Positions 16,163 through 25,061 of a DNA stretch of 33,309 nucleotides are shown here, in pieces. Positions within the stretch are counted from its first letter, which is position 1, and each line of letters opens with the position of its first letter. The DNA comes from Dysosmobacter sp. (GTDB lineage Bacteria; Bacillota; Clostridia; Oscillospirales; Oscillospiraceae), in assembly GCA_026169195.1 (NCBI GenBank), contig JAPFEH010000086.1:1-33309 (forward strand), written 5' to 3'. The translations under genes were made by a program, and so were the position numbers. Below the pieces are notes generated by a model. It was not told the DNA's origin. It did no database searches and saw only the letters and a program-made list of their open reading frames with translations.

Positions 16163-16167
16163 GGCTA

Positions 16168-16250
16168 TGCCGAAAGGAACTTCGGCAGGGTTTTCATGAA
16201 ATGGGGAGACGAGACCGGGCACGGCGCAAGCCGAACCCGCTCCCTATTTC
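16168..16250 (+). ncRNA. Structured 5' leader of the S-layer mRNA
   Basis: A first hairpin TGCCGAA/TTCGGCA (16168-16187) is followed by a long stem-loop. Its outer arms GAAATGGGGAG (16198-16208) and CTCCCTATTTC (16240-16250) pair except for one G-U; inside are CGGG/CCCG and CGGC/GCCG closed by a GCAA tetraloop (GNRA type, 16226-16229). It lies between the likely promoter and a strong ribosome site, and could stabilise the abundant S-layer mRNA or control its translation. Confidence 0.5.
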
Positions 16251-16305
16251 ACAAAGGCCCGCGCCGGAGACCTCGCGGTAAATTTTTGAAGGAGGAAATC
16301 CCACC

Positions 16306-19300
16306 ATGAAGAAATTCCTTTCTCTGGTACTGGCTCTGGTAATGACCATGTCTTTGGTCACTGTCAGCGCCGGTGCCAAGGACTTCGCGGATGACGACAA
16401 GGTCACTTATGACGAAGCCGTCGCCGTGATGTCCGAAGTGAAGGTGCTGGACGGCTATGCCGACGGCTCCTTCAAGCCTCAGGGCGGTTTGACCCGTGGC
16501 GCTGCCGCCAAGATCATCTGCAACCTGATTCTGGGGCCCACCACCGCAGCTGAGCTGCACGCAGACACCGCTCCCTACAAGGATGTGCCTGTGGATCACA
16601 CCTTTGCAGGCTACATTGCCTACTGCGCCAAGGAAGGCATCATCAGCGGCTACGCTGACGGCGCTTTCCGTCCCTCCGCTCCTCTGACCGGCTATGCCTT
16701 CATGAAGATGCTGCTGGGCGCTCTGGGCTATGACGCCGAGATCGAGCAGTACACCGGCGCCAACTGGTCCATCAACGTGGCCAAGCGCGCTCTGAACATC
16801 GGTCTGAACAAGAGTCTGGAAGGCGACTTCAACGGCATCAAGCACGTGACCCGTGAAGAGGCCGCTCTGTATGCCTTCAACACGCTGAAGGCTGATCTGG
16901 TGGAGTATGACTCCCGCACCTCCGTCAACGTCGGCGGCGCTGAGGTTGTCATCGCCGGTTCCGAGGCCAAGGCCCAGAAGTGGAACAACTCTGCCACCAA
17001 GATCGAGAACATCAAGAAGGATGACTACATCCAGTTCGCCGAGCAGTATTTCACCAAGCTGGTTCTGGACGAGACTACGGATGCCTTTGGCCGTCCTGCT
17101 CGTGAGTGGAGCTACAAGGGTGACGAGATCGGCACCTATGTCAACACGGATCTGCTGAAGGAGTCCTACACTGAGAAGGTCACCGGCAAGGAGCTGTACA
17201 GCCTGCTGGGCAAGTCCGTCATTGATGATTATGACTTCTCCATCTATGTGGATGGCGAGACCGAGAAGAATATCCTGAACAAGTTTGGCGTTGAAACCTA
17301 CTTCACCGCTGGCAATCTGGTGAAGGGCAACGACAAGGCTGTTGGCGATACCGGCAACGGTGTTCTGACCGAGGTCTATGTGGACTCTGACGAGAAGGAA
17401 GTCACCATCGCTATCATCAACACCTATCTGGCAAAGGCTGACAGCGATTATGACAAAAAGCGCGACGAAGCAAGCTTCGATGTTTGGGGTCTGGATGACG
17501 CCGGCAAGAAGCAGTATGTGAAGCGCGTTGGAGACTATCAGGAAGACATGACTGTTTCCGGCGAGGATTTCGATGTCGAGGAGATCGAAGAGGGCAAGAT
17601 CGTTCTGGTGACCGTTGCTGACGGCGAGATCCAGACCATTGCCGAGCCTGAGACTCTGGATACTGTTGAGATCAGCGCTTTCAAGAAGAACAGCAACATC
17701 ACTGTGGAAGGCACCAAGTACAGCTATGCTGATACTGCCTGCTATGACAACAAGACTCTGGTGGTCTACACCAGCGAGGATGACATCACCGTGAACCTGA
17801 AGGATACCAACTACAACGTGGTTCTGGATCCCTATGGTTATGTCATCGGTATCGAAGAGGTTGAGCCTGAGGACAACTATGTCTTCATCACCGGTTATGA
17901 CGGTAATTACAGCAACATTTCCAGCCGCACTGCCGACATGGCTGCCATCTTCATGGACGGCTCCATGAAGGTCATTGAGGTCAACGTGAAGAAGAGCGAC
18001 GAAGCTCTGTTTGACGAGAGCCTGAAGCACGCCAGAGACGAGGACGGCAAGGTAAAATACAGTGCCGGTCTGATCAATACTTGGTGCACCTACACGGTCA
18101 ATGATGATAACGTGTACACCCTGAAGATTGCAAAAGACCAGTATGCGCAGGATGTCACCAGCAGCGATGAGGTTGAGATCAACAAGAAGCACATCTCTCT
18201 GAAGGCTGGTTCTGGCAGCAAGTATGTCTATGGCAACGACAAGACCGTCTATCTGGATGTGTCTCTGGACAACATCAACACTATGAAGGACGAGTTTACC
18301 AGCGTGATTGACGATGTGGAGTCTGTGACCACCGGCGTCAAGAACACGGATCTGCTGGTGAAGGGCGTCACCAAGAAGACTGTTGATGCAAAGAAGACTG
18401 CCGACTTCTATCCTTCTGAGGAAATCTACACCCTGTGGGATGGCGGCTACGCCATTGCCGTTGTTGTGATCGGCGAGGATCAGGGCGTTTCCTCCAACTA
18501 TGCCTATGTCACCAGCAGTGACGTGGAGCAGGAAGGCTATGACAAGACCACCAAGGAGCACACTTGGAGCCGTGAGGTCGTTATCAACGGCAAGCTGACC
18601 ACCATCTCCTATGTGGGTGACAGCATTAATGTCATTGATAAGACTGATATGAAGCAGGGCGAGTGGTACAAGGTTACCTATTACGCCGACGGCAACGTGA
18701 AGGGCGCTGAGGCTCTGTCCACCAAGCTTGCTGATGCCGACAAGAAGGACGAGTACGTCAACGATGTTGAGGACATCGAGGAAGCCGTTGAGGAGAAGGA
18801 TGTTGTTCTGTACAACCAGAAGATGGAAGCTTCTGATAACGCCTCTCTGCAGTATGAGGATGGCTCCCTGTATGTCAAGACCACCAAGAAGACCGGCTTC
18901 TCCGTCTCTCCCGAGGTGAAGGTTGTTCTGTGTAACGCTGATGGCAAGGGCAAGGCTTTCGACGAGATCGATGATACCTATGACGGCTACAAGGGTCTGG
19001 AAAACGGGGTGCTGCGCCTTCCGGATCGGGAGACGCTGATCCCGCTGACCCTCCGCCGCGAGCTGCGCGCCGCACGGGAGCGGCGGGGGACAGACCCCCA
19101 TGTCCTGCTCAAGCCCCGCGCGGGGACCCCGCTGGACGGCAGCTATCTTTCCCGACGGGTGCGGACCGTGCTGCTGAAATACGGGGTGGACGATATTCTG
19201 TTTCGGGACGTCTGCCGCCAGCCGCCCAAGCGCGGAGAAAAGGAACAGCTGGTGGCGCTGGCGGGTGAGATGCCCGGATTTTCCCGTGCCGACGCCGCCG

Positions 19301-19608
19301 CGCGGCTGGAGCTTTCGCAGGCAGCGCTGTACCGCCGCCTGCGGGAGCTGGTCGGGGAAGGCCGGCTGGTGCGGGTAGGCTCCATGTACTATCTGCCCGG
19401 AACTGTGGTTCCGGAGGAAGAGCAGATGGACGTGATCGGGGCGTACCTTGCACGGGAAGGCTCCGCCACGGCTGCCCAGCTGCGGCTTTTGCTGCGGACA
19501 GAGCGCCGCCAGTGCGCCAGAGCCTTGAAAAAATTCACGGAACAGGGCGCGCTCCGACGGGAGGGCGACCGGTATTTCCTGCCGGAACGGGAAACGGCAA
19601 ACCGATAA
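16306..19608 (+). CDS. S-layer protein with three SLH domains, fused in frame to a truncated tyrosine-recombinase-like segment
   Basis: A Sec signal peptide (residues 1-24, cleavage near SAGA) leads into three S-layer homology domains at about 26-78, 91-143 and 150-205, with YADGSFKPQGGLTRG and YADGAFRPSAPLTGY. These anchor to secondary cell-wall polymer. An Asp/Glu/Lys-rich beta-type region runs to about residue 898. Codons up to here are strongly biased (CTG, AAG, GAC, ACC), as in abundant proteins. From about L898 the character changes at once to an Arg-rich, GC-rich sequence. LENGVLRLPDRETLIPL, LLKPRAGTPLDGSYLSRRV and FRDVCR resemble the catalytic core of tyrosine recombinases after the first catalytic arginine; winged-helix-like segments follow (ADAAARLELSQAALYRRLREL). 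The GGAGG site 9 bases before ATG 16306 is strong. The true S-layer C-terminus is missing, and the recombinase N-terminus is missing too. Confidence 0.85.
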   Translation: MKKFLSLVLALVMTMSLVTVSAGAKDFADDDKVTYDEAVAVMSEVKVLDGYADGSFKPQGGLTRGAAAKIICNLILGPTTAAELHADTAPYKDVPVDHTFAGYIAYCAKEGIISGYADGAFRPSAPLTGYAFMKMLLGALGYDAEIEQYTGANWSINVAKRALNIGLNKSLEGDFNGIKHVTREEAALYAFNTLKADLVEYDSRTSVNVGGAEVVIAGSEAKAQKWNNSATKIENIKKDDYIQFAEQYFTKLVLDETTDAFGRPAREWSYKGDEIGTYVNTDLLKESYTEKVTGKELYSLLGKSVIDDYDFSIYVDGETEKNILNKFGVETYFTAGNLVKGNDKAVGDTGNGVLTEVYVDSDEKEVTIAIINTYLAKADSDYDKKRDEASFDVWGLDDAGKKQYVKRVGDYQEDMTVSGEDFDVEEIEEGKIVLVTVADGEIQTIAEPETLDTVEISAFKKNSNITVEGTKYSYADTACYDNKTLVVYTSEDDITVNLKDTNYNVVLDPYGYVIGIEEVEPEDNYVFITGYDGNYSNISSRTADMAAIFMDGSMKVIEVNVKKSDEALFDESLKHARDEDGKVKYSAGLINTWCTYTVNDDNVYTLKIAKDQYAQDVTSSDEVEINKKHISLKAGSGSKYVYGNDKTVYLDVSLDNINTMKDEFTSVIDDVESVTTGVKNTDLLVKGVTKKTVDAKKTADFYPSEEIYTLWDGGYAIAVVVIGEDQGVSSNYAYVTSSDVEQEGYDKTTKEHTWSREVVINGKLTTISYVGDSINVIDKTDMKQGEWYKVTYYADGNVKGAEALSTKLADADKKDEYVNDVEDIEEAVEEKDVVLYNQKMEASDNASLQYEDGSLYVKTTKKTGFSVSPEVKVVLCNADGKGKAFDEIDDTYDGYKGLENGVLRLPDRETLIPLTLRRELRAARERRGTDPHVLLKPRAGTPLDGSYLSRRVRTVLLKYGVDDILFRDVCRQPPKRGEKEQLVALAGEMPGFSRADAAARLELSQAALYRRLRELVGEGRLVRVGSMYYLPGTVVPEEEQMDVIGAYLAREGSATAAQLRLLLRTERRQCARALKKFTEQGALRREGDRYFLPERETANR
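18997..19608 (+). pseudogene. 5'-truncated tyrosine-recombinase-like gene with winged-helix C-terminus (fused part of the S-layer ORF)
   Basis: About 203 residues lack any N-terminal arm-binding or core-binding domain. LENGVLRLPDRETLIPL corresponds to the phage-integrase segment between the first catalytic Arg and the Lys/beta-hairpin; FRDVCR aligns with the usual FHDLRH box, but the His and Arg context is degenerate and no later HxxR or catalytic Tyr is seen. The remainder has two winged-helix-like units, around LSQAALYRRLRELVGEGRLVRVGSMYYLPG and LRLLLRTERRQCARALKKFTEQGALRREGDRYFLP. This could be a known integrase/HTH family in Oscillospiraceae. Its own start is absent and expression could only come from the S-layer promoter. 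Confidence 0.6.
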
Positions 19609-19612
19609 GAGA

Positions 19613-19654
19613 AAACAGCAGCCCCCCAACCACGCGGTTCGGGGGCTGCTGTTT
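19613..19654. terminator. Bidirectional terminator between convergent genes
   Basis: AAACAGCAGCCCCC pairs perfectly with GGGGGCTGCTGTTT, with T-rich tails on both sides. It ends the S-layer/recombinase ORF on plus and the serine hydrolase gene on minus. Confidence 0.88.
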
Positions 19655-19655
19655 G

Positions 19656-21728
19656 TTACCGGAATTGCAGGTGGAAACGGGCGGCGGGATCTCCCGCAAA
19701 GACCACAAAGCCACCTGCGGGCAGAACGGCGGACGTGTCGTTCCACAGTACGGAGGAGGCGGTCACCTGACCGGCGGCGTCATAGACCCAGAAGCCGGCG
19801 TCCTCCGGCAGCAGGACCGTCATGCTCCGGCCCGCGGCGCTGCCGGTTTGATACCAGCGGGCGCTGCCGTCTGCCGGAACGGTGGAATAGGACCAGCCCG
19901 CGCCGGTGTAGAGCGCGGGGACGTCCGCGGCTTCCAGATATCGCGCGCCGTTGCTTTCCAGATAGGTGGCATTGCCTTCCTCATAGACCCGCAGATCCTG
20001 ACCGTCCCGACCGCCGGTGCCGGGGAGCTGCAATTCATAGCGGGCGGTGTGCTCGTCCACAATGCGGCAGGGACCGGCATAGCCCGGCGCAAAGCGGGGC
20101 AGGCTCTGGCCGGCGGCGTCCCCCTGCGCGGCCACCAGATACAGCTGGGAGGAGTAGGTCTCGTCCAGCGGGAGAAACGTGCTGGAAAGGATCCGGTCCC
20201 AGCCGGCCTGCACGTCCGGAGAGACGGGATTTTCCGGAAGCTTTACTGCCGCATAATTGGCGGCGGGCAGTGCGCCCAGCCCCGGCAGCTGTCCGATGCC
20301 CTGCTGGTAAAGATAGGTCTGCCCGTTGGATTCCTGCACAAAGGTTACGGCTGTCTGCCCTGCGGCGTCGCGGAACGTGCCGTCGGCGCAGTAGCGGAAG
20401 GTCTGGGCGGGCAGATCCGGCAGGGTGAGAAGCCCCAGCGTGAGGATGCCGTCGGCAGTCAGCTCCACCTGATATTGCGCGGAGGTGGAGCCGTAATATC
20501 CGGCGTTTTTCATCAGCTCCGCCGGCATGGGCGCAGGAGCGGCCTCCGGCAGCTGGGGGACGGTTTCGTCCAGCGTGACGCCTTGGGCTTTCAGAGCCTC
20601 CGCCAGCATCCGGGAGGCGGCCATCTCGTTGTAGGTGGATACGCCGCCGGAGGACAGGACTGCCGCTGCCATGCGGTATTCCGGAAGAACGACCAGTCCT
20701 GCGTGATAGTACATGGTGTCGCCGCCTTTGACCAGCGCCTGAATGCCGCTTTGAGAAAAGGGGAACCACGCTACGCTGTCCCATCCGAGGCCGTAGCTGA
20801 GGGCGTCCGGCGCATCCGTTTCGGGCCAGAGGCCGCGGGCATATTCCGAAGCGGCCATGGCTTTCAGAGAAGCGGGCTGCAGCAGAGCCGTACCCGTCAG
20901 GGCGCCGCCGAAGGCGGCCAGATCTCCGGCGGAGGCGACCATGCCGCCGGCGCCTGCCAGATTCAGGCATTCCCGGGGCAGTGCGCGGGGATCGGCGCCG
21001 TGGTAGGTTTTTGCCAGCAGGGAAGGATCAAAGGAACCGTCAGGACCATAGGTGGCATCCAGTCCGGCGGGACGGAGAATACAGGCGTCTACATACGACA
21101 TGAAATCCATGCCGGAAACCGCCTCCACCACCAGCTGCGCCAGTGTGAACCCGTCGTTGCAGTAAACGCTGTACGCGCCGGGATCGGCCTTGAGACGCTG
21201 GGTGGACAGCTGCCGCAGCAGGGTGTCCGTGGCATAGGAGTTGGTGTCATCAAAGAGCATGGCGCTGGTAAAGGAGGACCCCATCAGACCGGAGGAATGG
21301 TTCAGCAGCATCCGCACGGTGATCTGGCGGTATCTGGGGTCGGCCATGGTAAAATCCTTGAGGTAGCGTGTGACCGGAGCGTCCAGAGAGAGCCGGTGCC
21401 GCTCTGCCAGCTGCAGGACAGCCACCGTGGTATAAATTTTACTGACGGAGCCGATGCCATAGAGAATTTCATCGGTCAAAGCGCGGTTTTCCGTTCGGGA
21501 ATAGACGCCGCAGCTGCCGGTCAGCCGGAGCGCGCCGTCCTGCCAGAGGGCGTATTGGACACTGTCGGCTCCGCCATAGGTCATGGCGCCCTGCGCTGCG
21601 GCGAGGGCGGCGGCTTCCAGAGAAGAGTCGGCGGGGGCAGCTGGTTCGGCGGCCAGCGCCCCTGTGGAAAGCTGTATCGTCAGAAAAAGCGCCAGCAGCA
21701 GGGCGGTGCCGCGTTTGATGTGGTTCAT
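19656..21728 (-). CDS. Secreted serine hydrolase of the beta-lactamase/penicillin-binding family
   Basis: The 690-residue protein has a Sec signal peptide (GTALLLALFLTIQLSTGALAA) and then a class C beta-lactamase/DD-peptidase-like domain of about 350 residues. The catalytic tetrad SVSK is at 94-97 (in LYGIGSVSKIYTT), the second motif is YCN at 189-191 and the third is HAG at 342-344. MLLNHSSGLMGS is a further family hallmark. The C-terminal 300 residues are an extra beta-rich part of unknown function, ending FVVFAGDPAARFHLQFR. Expected substrates are cell-wall peptides or esters; antibiotic hydrolysis is not implied. ATG 21728 has AAGGA 6 bases upstream. It is monocistronic, convergent with the S-layer gene. 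Confidence 0.88.
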   Translation of the reverse strand: MNHIKRGTALLLALFLTIQLSTGALAAEPAAPADSSLEAAALAAAQGAMTYGGADSVQYALWQDGALRLTGSCGVYSRTENRALTDEILYGIGSVSKIYTTVAVLQLAERHRLSLDAPVTRYLKDFTMADPRYRQITVRMLLNHSSGLMGSSFTSAMLFDDTNSYATDTLLRQLSTQRLKADPGAYSVYCNDGFTLAQLVVEAVSGMDFMSYVDACILRPAGLDATYGPDGSFDPSLLAKTYHGADPRALPRECLNLAGAGGMVASAGDLAAFGGALTGTALLQPASLKAMAASEYARGLWPETDAPDALSYGLGWDSVAWFPFSQSGIQALVKGGDTMYYHAGLVVLPEYRMAAAVLSSGGVSTYNEMAASRMLAEALKAQGVTLDETVPQLPEAAPAPMPAELMKNAGYYGSTSAQYQVELTADGILTLGLLTLPDLPAQTFRYCADGTFRDAAGQTAVTFVQESNGQTYLYQQGIGQLPGLGALPAANYAAVKLPENPVSPDVQAGWDRILSSTFLPLDETYSSQLYLVAAQGDAAGQSLPRFAPGYAGPCRIVDEHTARYELQLPGTGGRDGQDLRVYEEGNATYLESNGARYLEAADVPALYTGAGWSYSTVPADGSARWYQTGSAAGRSMTVLLPEDAGFWVYDAAGQVTASSVLWNDTSAVLPAGGFVVFAGDPAARFHLQFR

Positions 21729-21778
21729 AGAAGATCCTTTCCCGCCCCTGAGGGGCGTGATCGAGAGAATGGTACAAG

Positions 21779-21807
21779 GGTACACCTTCCATCAGGGGGA
21801 ATGTCAA
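21779..21807 (-). promoter_or_regulatory. Possible promoter of the serine hydrolase gene
   Basis: On the minus strand a perfect TTGACA (21802-21807) is 17 bp from TGTACC (21779-21784), a poor -10 element. The GTAC-containing sequence is partly repeated 8 bases further on, so it may also be an operator. Confidence 0.4.
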
Positions 21808-21872
21808 GGCTTTTTTGGAAAATGACACGATGCACCCGCCGGGTGGAGGTGTGAGGGAGATTGTGCAGGGGG

Positions 21873-22712
21873 TTACGGCTTTGCGGTCAAAAGCCCCAGA
21901 AGCGGTTCAAAATCAACGCCTTCCCGCATGGGAAGCGCTTCCTGCGCCGTCCGCTCTGCGCAGGCGCGCACAAAGTCCACAGCCTGACGGGCGGCGTCCG
22001 GCAGGGAGGCGCCTTTGACCAGCGCGCCGGTGAGAACGCTGGTGAACACATCTCCGGTTCCGTGAAATTCCTGCGGGACCCGTCGGGTCTGGATGGCGCT
22101 TGTCTGACCGGTTTTTGCGTCAAAGCACATGGCGCCGGTCAGCCCCGGTCCGGCGGAAGCGCCGGTCAGCACCACGGAGCGGCGGCCGTTCAGACTGAGC
22201 CGTTCTGCGATCTCCCGACAGCCGGATTCTCCGGCAGGGAGGTCTGTGTAGGGGATGTGCAGCAGCAGCGCCGCCTCCGTGAAATTGGGGGTGATCACAT
22301 CGGCCTGCGCGGCCAGACGGGCAGTGCCCTCGCACATGGCGGGCGTGTAGGTTTGATAAACCCGCCCGTGATCGCCCATGACCGGATCGACCACCACGAT
22401 GGTGTCCGGACTGCGAAAATCACGGATGAAGTCGGATACCATGCCGATTTGACACTCGCTGCCCAGAAAACCGCTGTAAATGGCATGAAAAGAGATGTCC
22501 AAGGACTTCCAGTGATGGGCGACCTTGGGGATTTCCTCCGTCATATCCAAAAAGGTAAAGCCCTCAAAGCCGCCCGTATGTGTGGAGAGAAAGGCGGTGG
22601 GCAGAGGGCAGCATTGAAGGCCCATGGCTGATAAAATGGGGATCGCGACCGTCAAGGAACAGCGGCCGAAGCCGGACATATCATGAATTGCGGCAACACG
22701 TGGCGTCAGCAT
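21873..22712 (-). CDS. Pyridoxamine/pyridoxal kinase
   Basis: The 279-residue cytoplasmic ribokinase-superfamily enzyme phosphorylates B6 vitamers in the salvage route to pyridoxal phosphate. It begins VAAIHDMSGFGRCSLTVAIP, the substrate-binding start typical of the PdxY/PdxK group. It also has STHTGGFEGF, VVVDPVMGDHG with the metal-binding aspartate, DVITPNFTEAALL, and the ATP-site motif FHGTGDVFTSVLTGAL, where the GTGD aspartate is the catalytic base. ATG 22712 is chosen because GAGGT lies 8 bases upstream; ATG 22727 has no spaced site. It is divergent from the TfoX-N gene with overlapping promoters. Confidence 0.9.
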   Translation of the reverse strand: MLTPRVAAIHDMSGFGRCSLTVAIPILSAMGLQCCPLPTAFLSTHTGGFEGFTFLDMTEEIPKVAHHWKSLDISFHAIYSGFLGSECQIGMVSDFIRDFRSPDTIVVVDPVMGDHGRVYQTYTPAMCEGTARLAAQADVITPNFTEAALLLHIPYTDLPAGESGCREIAERLSLNGRRSVVLTGASAGPGLTGAMCFDAKTGQTSAIQTRRVPQEFHGTGDVFTSVLTGALVKGASLPDAARQAVDFVRACAERTAQEALPMREGVDFEPLLGLLTAKP

Positions 22713-22749
22713 GCGAGCAGACCTCATTTCCTTTGTTTCAGATTCTTAT

Positions 22750-22778
22750 ATTGTATCGCAGATTTTCCTGTTGTTCAA
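22750..22778 (-). promoter_or_regulatory. Promoter of the pyridoxamine kinase gene
   Basis: On the minus strand TTGAAC (22773-22778) and TACAAT (22750-22755) are 17 bp apart. Its -35 box overlaps that of the plus-strand promoter at 22771-22799. Confidence 0.65.
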
Positions 22779-22799
22779 GGCGGGAAATTGTGTTATAAT
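22771..22799 (+). promoter_or_regulatory. Promoter of the TfoX-N gene and tRNA-Leu
   Basis: TTGTTC (22771-22776) and TATAAT (22794-22799) are 17 bp apart, about 29 bases before the start codon at 22828. Confidence 0.75.
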
Positions 22800-22827
22800 G
22801 CGAACAAATGCTGTGGAGGGTTTTATC

Positions 22828-23142
22828 ATGGCATCCGGTAAAGAGTACTTGGATTTTATATTGGAACAGCTGTCCGGTCTGGATGGGATCACACACCGGA
22901 CCATGATGGGGGAGTATATCCTCTATTACAGAGGGAAAATCGTCGGAGGCATCTATGATGACCGGCTGCTGGTAAAGCCGGTCAAGGCCGCCCTTATCCG
23001 GATGCCGGATGCAGCCTTTGAGCGCCCCTATGATGGCGCAAAGGAACTGCTGCTGGTTGACAATGTGGATGACAGCGCATTTTTGACAAAGCTGTTTGAA
23101 GCAATGTACGAGGAGCTTCCCGCTCCCAAGAAAAAGAAATAA
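22828..23142 (+). CDS. TfoX N-terminal domain protein
   Basis: The 104-residue protein consists of the TfoX/Sxy N-terminal domain alone: YLDFILEQLSGLDGITHRTM, then MGEYILYYRGKIVGGIYDDRLLVKP and ending in a Pro-Lys tail. In Proteobacteria full-length TfoX/Sxy controls competence. The isolated domain is widespread in Firmicutes and has no established function there, so no competence role should be assumed. The ATG at 22828 has GGAGGG 7 bases upstream. The tRNA-Leu gene begins only 30 bases after the stop codon with no terminator between, so both are probably on one transcript. Confidence 0.85.
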   Translation: MASGKEYLDFILEQLSGLDGITHRTMMGEYILYYRGKIVGGIYDDRLLVKPVKAALIRMPDAAFERPYDGAKELLLVDNVDDSAFLTKLFEAMYEELPAPKKKK

Positions 23143-23172
23143 CGGTCGGGAATTCCCCGGCAGTTCATACAC

Positions 23173-23257
23173 GCGGGCATGATGGAATTGGTAGACATGC
23201 GAGATTTAGGTTCTCGTGCAGCAATGCGTTGGGGTTCGAGTCCCCATGCCCGCACCA
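23173..23257 (+). tRNA. tRNA-Leu (anticodon TAG)
   Basis: The acceptor stem GCGGGCA (23173-23179) pairs with TGCCCGC (23247-23253), followed by A and an encoded CCA (23255-23257). The anticodon stem CGAGA/TCTCG encloses the loop TTTAGGT, with TAG at 23207-23209, reading CUA and related codons. The long variable arm and GGTTCGAGTCC T-arm are typical of class II tRNA-Leu. Confidence 0.97.
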
Positions 23258-23297
23258 ACTCTGGTAAACACTTTCAATCCAAAAGCTGCAAAGTATA

Positions 23298-23324
23298 CGG
23301 ACGCAAGCGTTTGCCGGATTTTTT
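23298..23324 (+). terminator. Probable terminator of the TfoX-N/tRNA-Leu transcript
   Basis: CGG-AC-GCAA pairs with TTGC-CG around GCGT with a small bulge and is followed by GATTTTTT. The stem is modest. Confidence 0.55.
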
Positions 23325-23450
23325 ATGCCCCCGGATTTAGGAGGTGTTACGAAAGATCCAAAACGCCATTTTCAAGGAATCTTGGGACTTGAACCTGTAT
23401 TACTCTAGATGAGCTGGTGTCTTTTTTCAAATCAAAAAGCGCGATAATCT

Positions 23451-23479
23451 TTGATATAAATGCTTCGTTGTGATACAAT
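23451..23479 (+). promoter_or_regulatory. Promoter of the 271-aa membrane protein gene
   Basis: TTGATA (23451-23456) and TACAAT (23474-23479) are 17 bp apart. The spacer resembles that of the promoter at 24624-24652 at 12 of 17 positions. Confidence 0.7.
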
Positions 23480-23549
23480 TAATGCACCTATAATAAGCAG
23501 CGTGAAGGCTAATAATAGGCATCTGTTAAACGCTTCTGGAGGCGACGCC

Positions 23550-24365
23550 ATGCCGCATAAAATATATCGGACAAAGAAATACGCTATTATGGGTACTGTT
23601 GTATGCTTCCTGTGGATATATCCTGTCACTATGTTGCTTAATCACGAATCTCTGTCTGAACTGCCTATCATCATAAAGATGGAGGGGCTCTTAAACATTT
23701 CGCTCTTGATTATGGGGGCGGTATTTCTTCGGTGCTTGATTCTGCTTTTCAAAAAGCGTCCTTTGTTACAGGCCGGAGAGAACGGGCTTCATTTGCAGGT
23801 TTCAAAGAAAAATTGCGGCATAATTCCTTGGAGACATATAGCGCATTTTGATTGCTTACCGGATCGGCGGGAAGTCAGAGTATATTTGCAGGGCCTGTGG
23901 GATGTTCCAGATGACTGCGGAGAAAAATTTGATATTCAGATCGATGAGAAGAGGCAGAGGATGATCGTTCTTCCTTTGCAGCACAAGGTTCGTAATCCGG
24001 CTCATGTCCGCGACGAGTTAGAGGAATGGTGGCTCTACTATTCTGAAGGAGAGACATCGCAATTTCCGGAGATAGATGAACGATCCCGCCGGCGAATTGC
24101 GTCAGCAAAGAAACACGGAGTTGCTTCAATATTGGTTCCGATGTACTTTATTCATTCAAAATTCTGGGTTCTGGTAATTATCGATTTCCTGTTTCTTGCG
24201 GCTCTGATTGAAAAGTGTACAGCGTTTTCCCGCCCAGTAGTATTAGCGATTGCTGTGGTTCCGACATTATTGCTGTCGTTCATCATTCGAAGACTACTGT
24301 CAAAAGCAATTTCTGCATTGGAATACAGTAAGGAACAGAACCAAGATCGGATGATTGGATTGTAA
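23550..24365 (+). CDS. Membrane protein of unknown function, 271 aa
   Basis: Two N-terminal membrane helices (AIMGTVVCFLWIYPVTMLL and the segment around ISLLIMGAVFLRCLILLF) lead to a soluble part of about 130 residues. The string LLQAGENGLHLQVSKKNCGIIPWRHI resembles bacterial PH-like domains in small Firmicute membrane proteins (STM3941-like). Two further helices follow near the C-terminus (WVLVIIDFLFLAALI and VVLAIAVVPTLLLSFII). ATG 23550 has GGAGG 7 bases upstream. Codon use is visibly less GC-rich (many ATA, TTA, GAA, AAA codons) than in neighbouring genes, which suggests acquisition. It is an orphan between tRNA-Leu and another small membrane protein gene. Function is unknown. Confidence 0.75.
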   Translation: MPHKIYRTKKYAIMGTVVCFLWIYPVTMLLNHESLSELPIIIKMEGLLNISLLIMGAVFLRCLILLFKKRPLLQAGENGLHLQVSKKNCGIIPWRHIAHFDCLPDRREVRVYLQGLWDVPDDCGEKFDIQIDEKRQRMIVLPLQHKVRNPAHVRDELEEWWLYYSEGETSQFPEIDERSRRRIASAKKHGVASILVPMYFIHSKFWVLVIIDFLFLAALIEKCTAFSRPVVLAIAVVPTLLLSFIIRRLLSKAISALEYSKEQNQDRMIGL

Positions 24366-24705
24366 GGTAGTTCAAATTGTGAGCTCGAAAGTGAGCACTC
24401 CGGCCACTTTTATTTCTGCGGAACAAAAAAACGTCATTCGTCCGCTTCCTTGCTCCTTCTTTCTAAATCGCAACCGCTGTGCTGGGGCGCGATTTGGTGT
24501 CGCCGCTTTTCCGGAAAACAAGAGGTTTGAACCTGTGCGGGCATGAAAACACCGGAGTCTGTTCAAAAGGGAGATGCCGCAGAAACGAAATTTGATTCCA
24601 GAAGGGCGGCAAAGCTTCAAGTGTTGATATGAATGAACCGTTATGATACAATTTACATATCAGAAGGGAAGATGTGATGTGAGCTCCATGGAAGGGGGAT
24701 CAACC
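24366..24705. other. Intergenic stretch without a supported gene
   Basis: 340 bases lie between two membrane protein genes. Short frames on both strands have no ribosome site and no recognisable protein character. The only element I can support is the promoter at 24624-24652. Confidence 0.6.
24624..24652 (+). promoter_or_regulatory. Promoter of the 77-aa membrane protein gene
   Basis: TTGATA (24624-24629) and TACAAT (24647-24652) are 17 bp apart, 54 bases before the start codon. It has the same hexamers and a similar spacer as the promoter at 23451-23479. Confidence 0.7.
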
Positions 24706-24939
24706 ATGTTCACAACAACGCCTCACAATCTCAGCGACGCCCAGCTTGGTCTGCTGCTGGTGGTTGTCTATCCGCTCTTGGGCGGCTCGTTTGTTCTCTA
24801 CAATGCCTACCGTATGGGGAGGCTGAAATGGAAGCCCGGCAAGCCGGCAAACCCCCGTTTGGTTACTTTTGTGATCCTCCTTGGAGTTATCCTGATCCCC
24901 CTGTTGCTGTCAGTGATTGATTCGATCGTTGCGCAGTAA
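24706..24939 (+). CDS. Small membrane protein of unknown function, 77 aa
   Basis: The protein has two hydrophobic segments, LGLLLVVVYPLLGGSFVLYN and LVTFVILLGVILIPLLLSVI, joined by a short basic loop (RMGRLKWKPGKPANPR), predicting a helical hairpin with the loop in the cytoplasm. ATG 24706 has AAGGGGG 7 bases upstream and gives a compact two-helix protein; upstream in-frame starts add only non-hydrophobic residues. I recognise no family. It has its own promoter and is followed by a bidirectional terminator. Confidence 0.7.
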   Translation: MFTTTPHNLSDAQLGLLLVVVYPLLGGSFVLYNAYRMGRLKWKPGKPANPRLVTFVILLGVILIPLLLSVIDSIVAQ

Positions 24940-25061
24940 ATCAGCTGCAAGTGACTGCGGCTCGGAGGATCCTGACAGAAGGTGCGGAGCGGCTGCCGCG
25001 GGCCTTTTTGCCGAACCGGAAAAAACTGCTGTCAAATAAAAGCGCAAGGTCAAACAAATGG

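Follow-up and report, generated by a model that had tools for sequence, protein, structure and literature searches.

The window analysed here, a 33,309-nt stretch that forms contig 83 in a draft genome of 90 contigs from Dysosmobacter sp. (95.6% complete; GCA_026169195.1, contig JAPFEH010000086.1), carries at 16306-19608 a single open reading frame of 1100 codons in which the N-terminal part of an SLH-domain S-layer protein is fused in frame to the C-terminal part of a second protein, named REC. The likely origin of this frame, in our view, is a loss of about 1.3-1.6 kb, which joined an S-layer gene to a REC gene lying downstream of it. The fusion probably arose by accident in a single lineage, and the fused REC copy is most likely dead, since it would be exported with the S-layer N-terminus, in which an export signal was recognised by eye.

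The fused reading frame and its junction

The reading frame runs without interruption, and its second part corresponds to the last ~200 residues of REC, beginning at REC residue 218 in a protein alignment (Table 1). This tail was 56% identical to the REC protein encoded on contig C59 of the same genome, 57% to that of the isolate Oscillibacter valericigenes An860 (G255:C10, NZ_JAFBIV010000019.1), and 38% to that on own-genome contig C73. The first two are its closest relatives found, the best of the 120 database proteins listed reaching 41%. The preliminary description of this DNA had proposed an in-frame fusion of two incomplete parents with an abrupt change of composition near 18997, and both points were borne out: across that position GC content rises from 0.52 to 0.68 and arginine codons go from 12 of 896 to 33 of 203, with GC at third codon positions of 0.69-0.77 before the junction and 0.78 after it.

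The closest relative of the S-layer part was P0002 (70% identical across 82% of the query); identity to the left-end S-layer gene of own-genome contig C47 was 60%. Two SLH repeats scored above the Pfam cut-off, where three had been described earlier. Homology to the S-layer family reaches the residues GYKGLE (894-899) and then ends, so a complete C-terminal S-layer body is absent; past this point the relatives read DAIDDLN or similar, whereas the window reads NGVLRLPDR. Eight S-layer relatives continue for 135-309 residues past the junction (138-229 in the nearer ones, with 142 in P0002 and 229 in C47). The junction position is occupied by Leu-Glu in seven of the eight aligned S-layer relatives and by Leu-Lys in P0007, the codons being CTGGAG in C47 and CTGGAA in L127. 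At the corresponding site REC has CTGGAG in C59 and C73, and TTTGAG in An860. Because CTGGA(A/G) Leu-Glu codons are found in both S-layer and REC relatives, a short microhomology at the junction is likely.

Table 1 Features in and around the fused gene, with positions in the window.
Feature	Position	Strand	Basis
S-layer leader, a long hairpin immediately 5' of the ribosome-binding site, lacking the GGCUAGCC motif of most relatives	16165..16300	+	RNA fold
S-layer (SLH) protein, N-terminal 897 codons; end of the parent absent	16306..18996	+	Homology to relatives
SLH repeat	16384..16509	+	Pfam PF00395
SLH repeat	16573..16689	+	Pfam PF00395
Junction, Leu-Glu codons CTGGAA	18997..19002	+	S-layer relatives GLE, REC of C59 and C73 DLE; codon listing and alignment
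REC C-terminal ~200 residues: most of degenerate unit 2 and two winged helices	18997..19605	+	Identity to REC copies
Terminator-like hairpin 3' of the fused gene	19634..19649	+	Pattern match only; 11 such sites in the stretch against 3.3 expected
tRNA-Leu	23173-23257

REC is a degenerate recombinase fold

REC consists of two tandem tyrosine-recombinase catalytic folds (PF00589) and two winged helices. Residues 3-165 of the REC model correspond to XerA 100-276, and the fold is repeated at 176-314. The catalytic set R, H, R, H/W, Y of PF00589 is not retained. In a census of 152 REC sequences, unit 1 had Arg-I in 1, the His in none, Arg-II in all 152, the His/Trp in none, and the Tyr in 4; in 150 sequences the Arg-I position is followed directly by an arginine. 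In unit 2, 52 sequences had an arginine at the Arg-I position and none had the His. The loop that would carry the catalytic Lys is shortened. Since most catalytic residues are lost, it is very improbable that REC works as a recombinase, and we reject site-specific recombination by REC, including the inversion of S-layer cassettes by REC alone, as very unlikely. Its two degenerate recombinase folds and two winged helices indicate instead that it is most likely a DNA-binding regulator linked to S-layer genes. For the window's tail, the earlier reading of a recombinase core with winged helices holds for both winged helices; the core is not intact, only most of degenerate unit 2 being present.

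REC genes adjoin S-layer genes, largely within one genus

Among the sampled genomes, REC is nearly confined to the genus of the window (Oscillibacter/Dysosmobacter relatives). It was detected in 47 of 86 genomes of the genus (E<=1e-20), and a family sample of 150 genomes gave six matches at E<=1e-10: the genome itself, a second genome of the genus, a strong match outside the genus (G197), and three weak matches. With the tail as query, 22 of 60 relatives matched, every one of them within the genus, and 23 genomes from other families gave no match. Named REC records (71 loci) belonged to Oscillibacter, Dysosmobacter or Oscillospiraceae, with a few labelled just Clostridia or Eubacteriales.

For gene context, 80 fetched loci, mostly of the same genus and including part of the matches in the 86 genomes, gave 74 distinct REC copies that include the C-terminus (at least 150 bits, query end at least 380). 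An S-layer gene starts 213-678 bp (median 307) downstream on the same strand in 59 of the 74. Eleven copies have less than 700 bp of sequence remaining; hence 63 are testable, and 59 of these are paired. The four unpaired copies are L060, L069, L073, and L114, the last with an S-layer gene upstream. Thus, the earlier statement that a recombinase gene sits beside S-layer genes stands as to position, although the protein has mostly lost its catalytic residues. As a side observation read by eye, the unpaired copy of L060 (1-7090) has as neighbours what look like a true tyrosine recombinase and a fragment of Cas9.

The genome of the window has two complete REC genes, both on other contigs. The C73 copy is located 280 bp ahead of an S-layer start, the S-layer gene running off the contig end. 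The C59 copy lies 3' of an S-layer gene truncated by the contig end and 5' of a segment that, read by eye, resembles an IS3-type element. The REC proteins of C59 and An860 are 82.5% identical, and both genes are downstream of an S-layer gene, with gaps of 240 and about 235 bp, respectively.

Origin of the fusion

Removing the S-layer C-terminus, the spacer, and the REC N-terminus from a gene pair of the C59/An860 type yields the open reading frame of the window. The ancestral locus would thus probably have had the S-layer gene followed by REC, and recombination at a short shared CTGGA(A/G) sequence would have removed the S-layer C-terminus (~140-230 codons), a spacer of ~0.24 kb, and REC codons up to about 217, the frame staying open by chance. 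The estimated deletion length combines the residues of P0002 and C47 past the site (142 and 229) with the C59 spacer and 217 REC codons.

A wrong joining of halves from different loci or strains during assembly is the strongest competitor of a deletion, although we regard it as unlikely. The assembly is a draft, the fusion is a singleton, and several contigs of the genome (C47, C73, and C23) begin or end within the 5' regions of S-layer genes, which encode similar N-termini (95% to C47 and 90% to C73 at the protein level). The S-layer gene of C47 also has, near the contig end, an in-frame stop at codon 32 (L042 100-102), which is either assembly noise or the mark of a silent copy. To the right of the fusion (window 19656-25000), a PF00144 gene and a kinase gene stand side by side; relatives have this pair too, but elsewhere and not adjoining the TPM-domain gene that lies to the left here. 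This also fits a chimera. Because the pair sits elsewhere in relatives, the stretch between the TPM and anti-sigma genes seems to be a variable site. Against misassembly, one relative (G241:C13) is collinear with the outer flanks: its TPM-domain gene and its genes for anti-sigma and extracytoplasmic function (ECF) sigma factors have identical order and strands, the left and right flanks being about 8 kb apart there, against 9.5 kb here, with other genes in between. Further points against misassembly are that positions 18901-19100 share no 14-base word, and only two 13-base words, with five compared S-layer or REC stretches of the genome; that the cluster of the fused protein holds three sequences on two contigs, which possibly come from one sample, the longest of 33,312 bases against 33,309 here; and that the joined order is that of C59 and An860.

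A reciprocal product, the search for which had been proposed as a check, was not found: REC matched its own genome at three places, the N-terminal sequence occurring only in the two full copies and in no orphan half. The missing S-layer C-terminus had no match in the genome at E<=1, in a search without a positive control that shows little. Nor did other S-layer::REC fusions emerge from 7993 scored candidates, which were only those sharing most words. P0001 and P0243 passed, and P0243 was rejected: its sequence, read by eye, is that of a 630-aa REC relative with three tandem recombinase-like units instead of two and contains no S-layer protein.

It is highly improbable that the hybrid works as a new S-layer protein with its C-terminus exchanged for a basic DNA-binding-like domain. 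Its frame is open up to the stop codon and the terminator-like hairpin, and 1100 aa is a normal length for the S-layer family. It forms one protein cluster only, however, and the tail is unlikely to fold as it does in REC because its start, at REC residue 218, lies inside a fold unit that begins near 176. Least credible of all is a fusion made by site-specific or programmed recombination of an S-layer switching system, which the adjacency of REC and S-layer genes and the likeness of convergent S-layer pairs of relatives to invertible segments might favour, but against which stand the loss of most REC catalytic residues, the lack of an inverted partner S-layer gene in the window, and the position of the repeats in convergent pairs, which cover the S-layer 5' end and not codon 897.

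S-layer leaders and convergent gene pairs

Most of the S-layer genes examined in the genus are preceded by a long hairpin that has GGCUAGCC close to its tip (for example, L155 4255-4365 and L044 13530-13636, both on the + strand). The leader of the window has a fold energy of -65.2 kcal/mol, with z -5.9 relative to 200 shuffled sequences and z -5.3 when a wider stretch is folded. It has no GCTAGC within 350 nt upstream of the S-layer gene, and was not matched at E<=1 by R1, our model of the leader. RNAalifold on the MAFFT alignment A4 gave almost no structure (6 pairs); the sequences were then folded one by one to obtain the consensus. Among 39 leader sequences, 148 cells had changed on both sides, compared to 75.5 in shuffles, and slid controls were lower; this count is biased towards the consensus because the consensus came from folds of the same sequences. 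Two of the five covariation measures were weak: pairs with changes on both sides (21 against 19.0, reached by 47 of 500 shuffles) and further pair types (67 against 61.4, reached by 21 of 500). R1 recovered leaders outside its building set (L160, L192 twice, and L109). It found none at E<=1 in seven GCTAGC-bearing leaders (L053, L101, L103, L106, L107, L120, and L124) and therefore represents one architecture only. Motif-bearing leaders tested over a 192-nt stretch had fold z values of -0.7 to -3.0, and no leader from seven sources matched Rfam at the gathering threshold.

GCTAGC was located 50-140 nt upstream of 53 of 57 REC-linked S-layer genes and of 27 of 55 others. Since it is common among the latter, it is not REC-specific, and the leader motif was rejected as a REC target. 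The word GTTAAAAG occurred upstream only of REC-linked genes (15/57 vs 0/53), a difference lost on correction for the thousands of words tested. Pairing between two leaders through the palindromic GCUAGC is speculation.

Elsewhere in the genus, S-layer genes occur in convergent pairs. The leader element was present on exactly one gene in all seven complete pairs (L134 and L155-L160, with starts 5.2-8.8 kb apart; L161 and L162, cut by contig ends, were excluded), and likewise in the divergent pair L163, which also has inverted 5' repeats of ~650 nt. The inverted 5' arms of the convergent pairs, measured for six of the seven (all except L134), are 646-702 nt long and 83-92% complementary. To judge from their arrangement, these pairs are candidate invertible S-layer switches that resemble promoter-sharing inversion systems. 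They have no evident link to the locus of the window, where no two convergent genes with inverted 5' repeats were found and where the search of the genome placed no S-layer gene on the contig other than the fused one. The surface-variation role proposed in the preliminary description thus finds no support, no switching being evident at the locus.

Comparison with known systems and implications

S-layer switching by inversion occurs at slpA/slpB of Lactobacillus acidophilus. CwpV of C. difficile is reported as an S-layer-paralogue switch. The likeness to these systems lies in the convergent pairs of the genus, which carry inverted 5' repeats and have the leader on just one of the two genes; the differences are that the window has no such pair and that neither an inversion nor a recombinase was seen for the pairs. 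REC resembles MrpR (YopR), the master repressor of Bacillus phage SPbeta, and SroF of phi3T, which also combine a recombinase fold with a degenerate active site. The likeness to MrpR is one of fold and active-site decay: MrpR retains the Lys and Tyr and has a core-binding domain with one catalytic fold, whereas the REC model starts at the catalytic fold with no separate core-binding domain, and REC has two tandem catalytic-fold units (three in P0243), two winged helices, and a place beside S-layer genes. Compared to Xer/integrase recombinases (XerA 4a8e, 5hxy), REC unit 1 lacks Arg-I, His, His/Trp, and Tyr, in addition to the shortening of the Lys loop. A search for Dysosmobacter with S-layer found no literature, and among the matches listed for Oscillibacter S-layer, for S-layer with tyrosine recombinase, and for S-layer leader hairpins, none named these genes.

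We propose, with evenly balanced judgement, that the S-layer genes of Oscillibacter/Dysosmobacter are under a dedicated, undescribed class of regulator, one copy of which, in the window, would have been lost when it fused to the gene it controls. Such a regulator, built of tandem degenerate recombinase folds and two winged helices and encoded beside the S-layer gene, would act on the promoter and the structured leader. Several database entries call REC proteins tyrosine-type recombinase/integrase, which invites a reading as S-layer switching; an integrase annotation does not equal mobility or phase variation. The pairing of REC with S-layer genes is the part worth following, as it makes S-layer control in these little-studied gut commensals directly testable.
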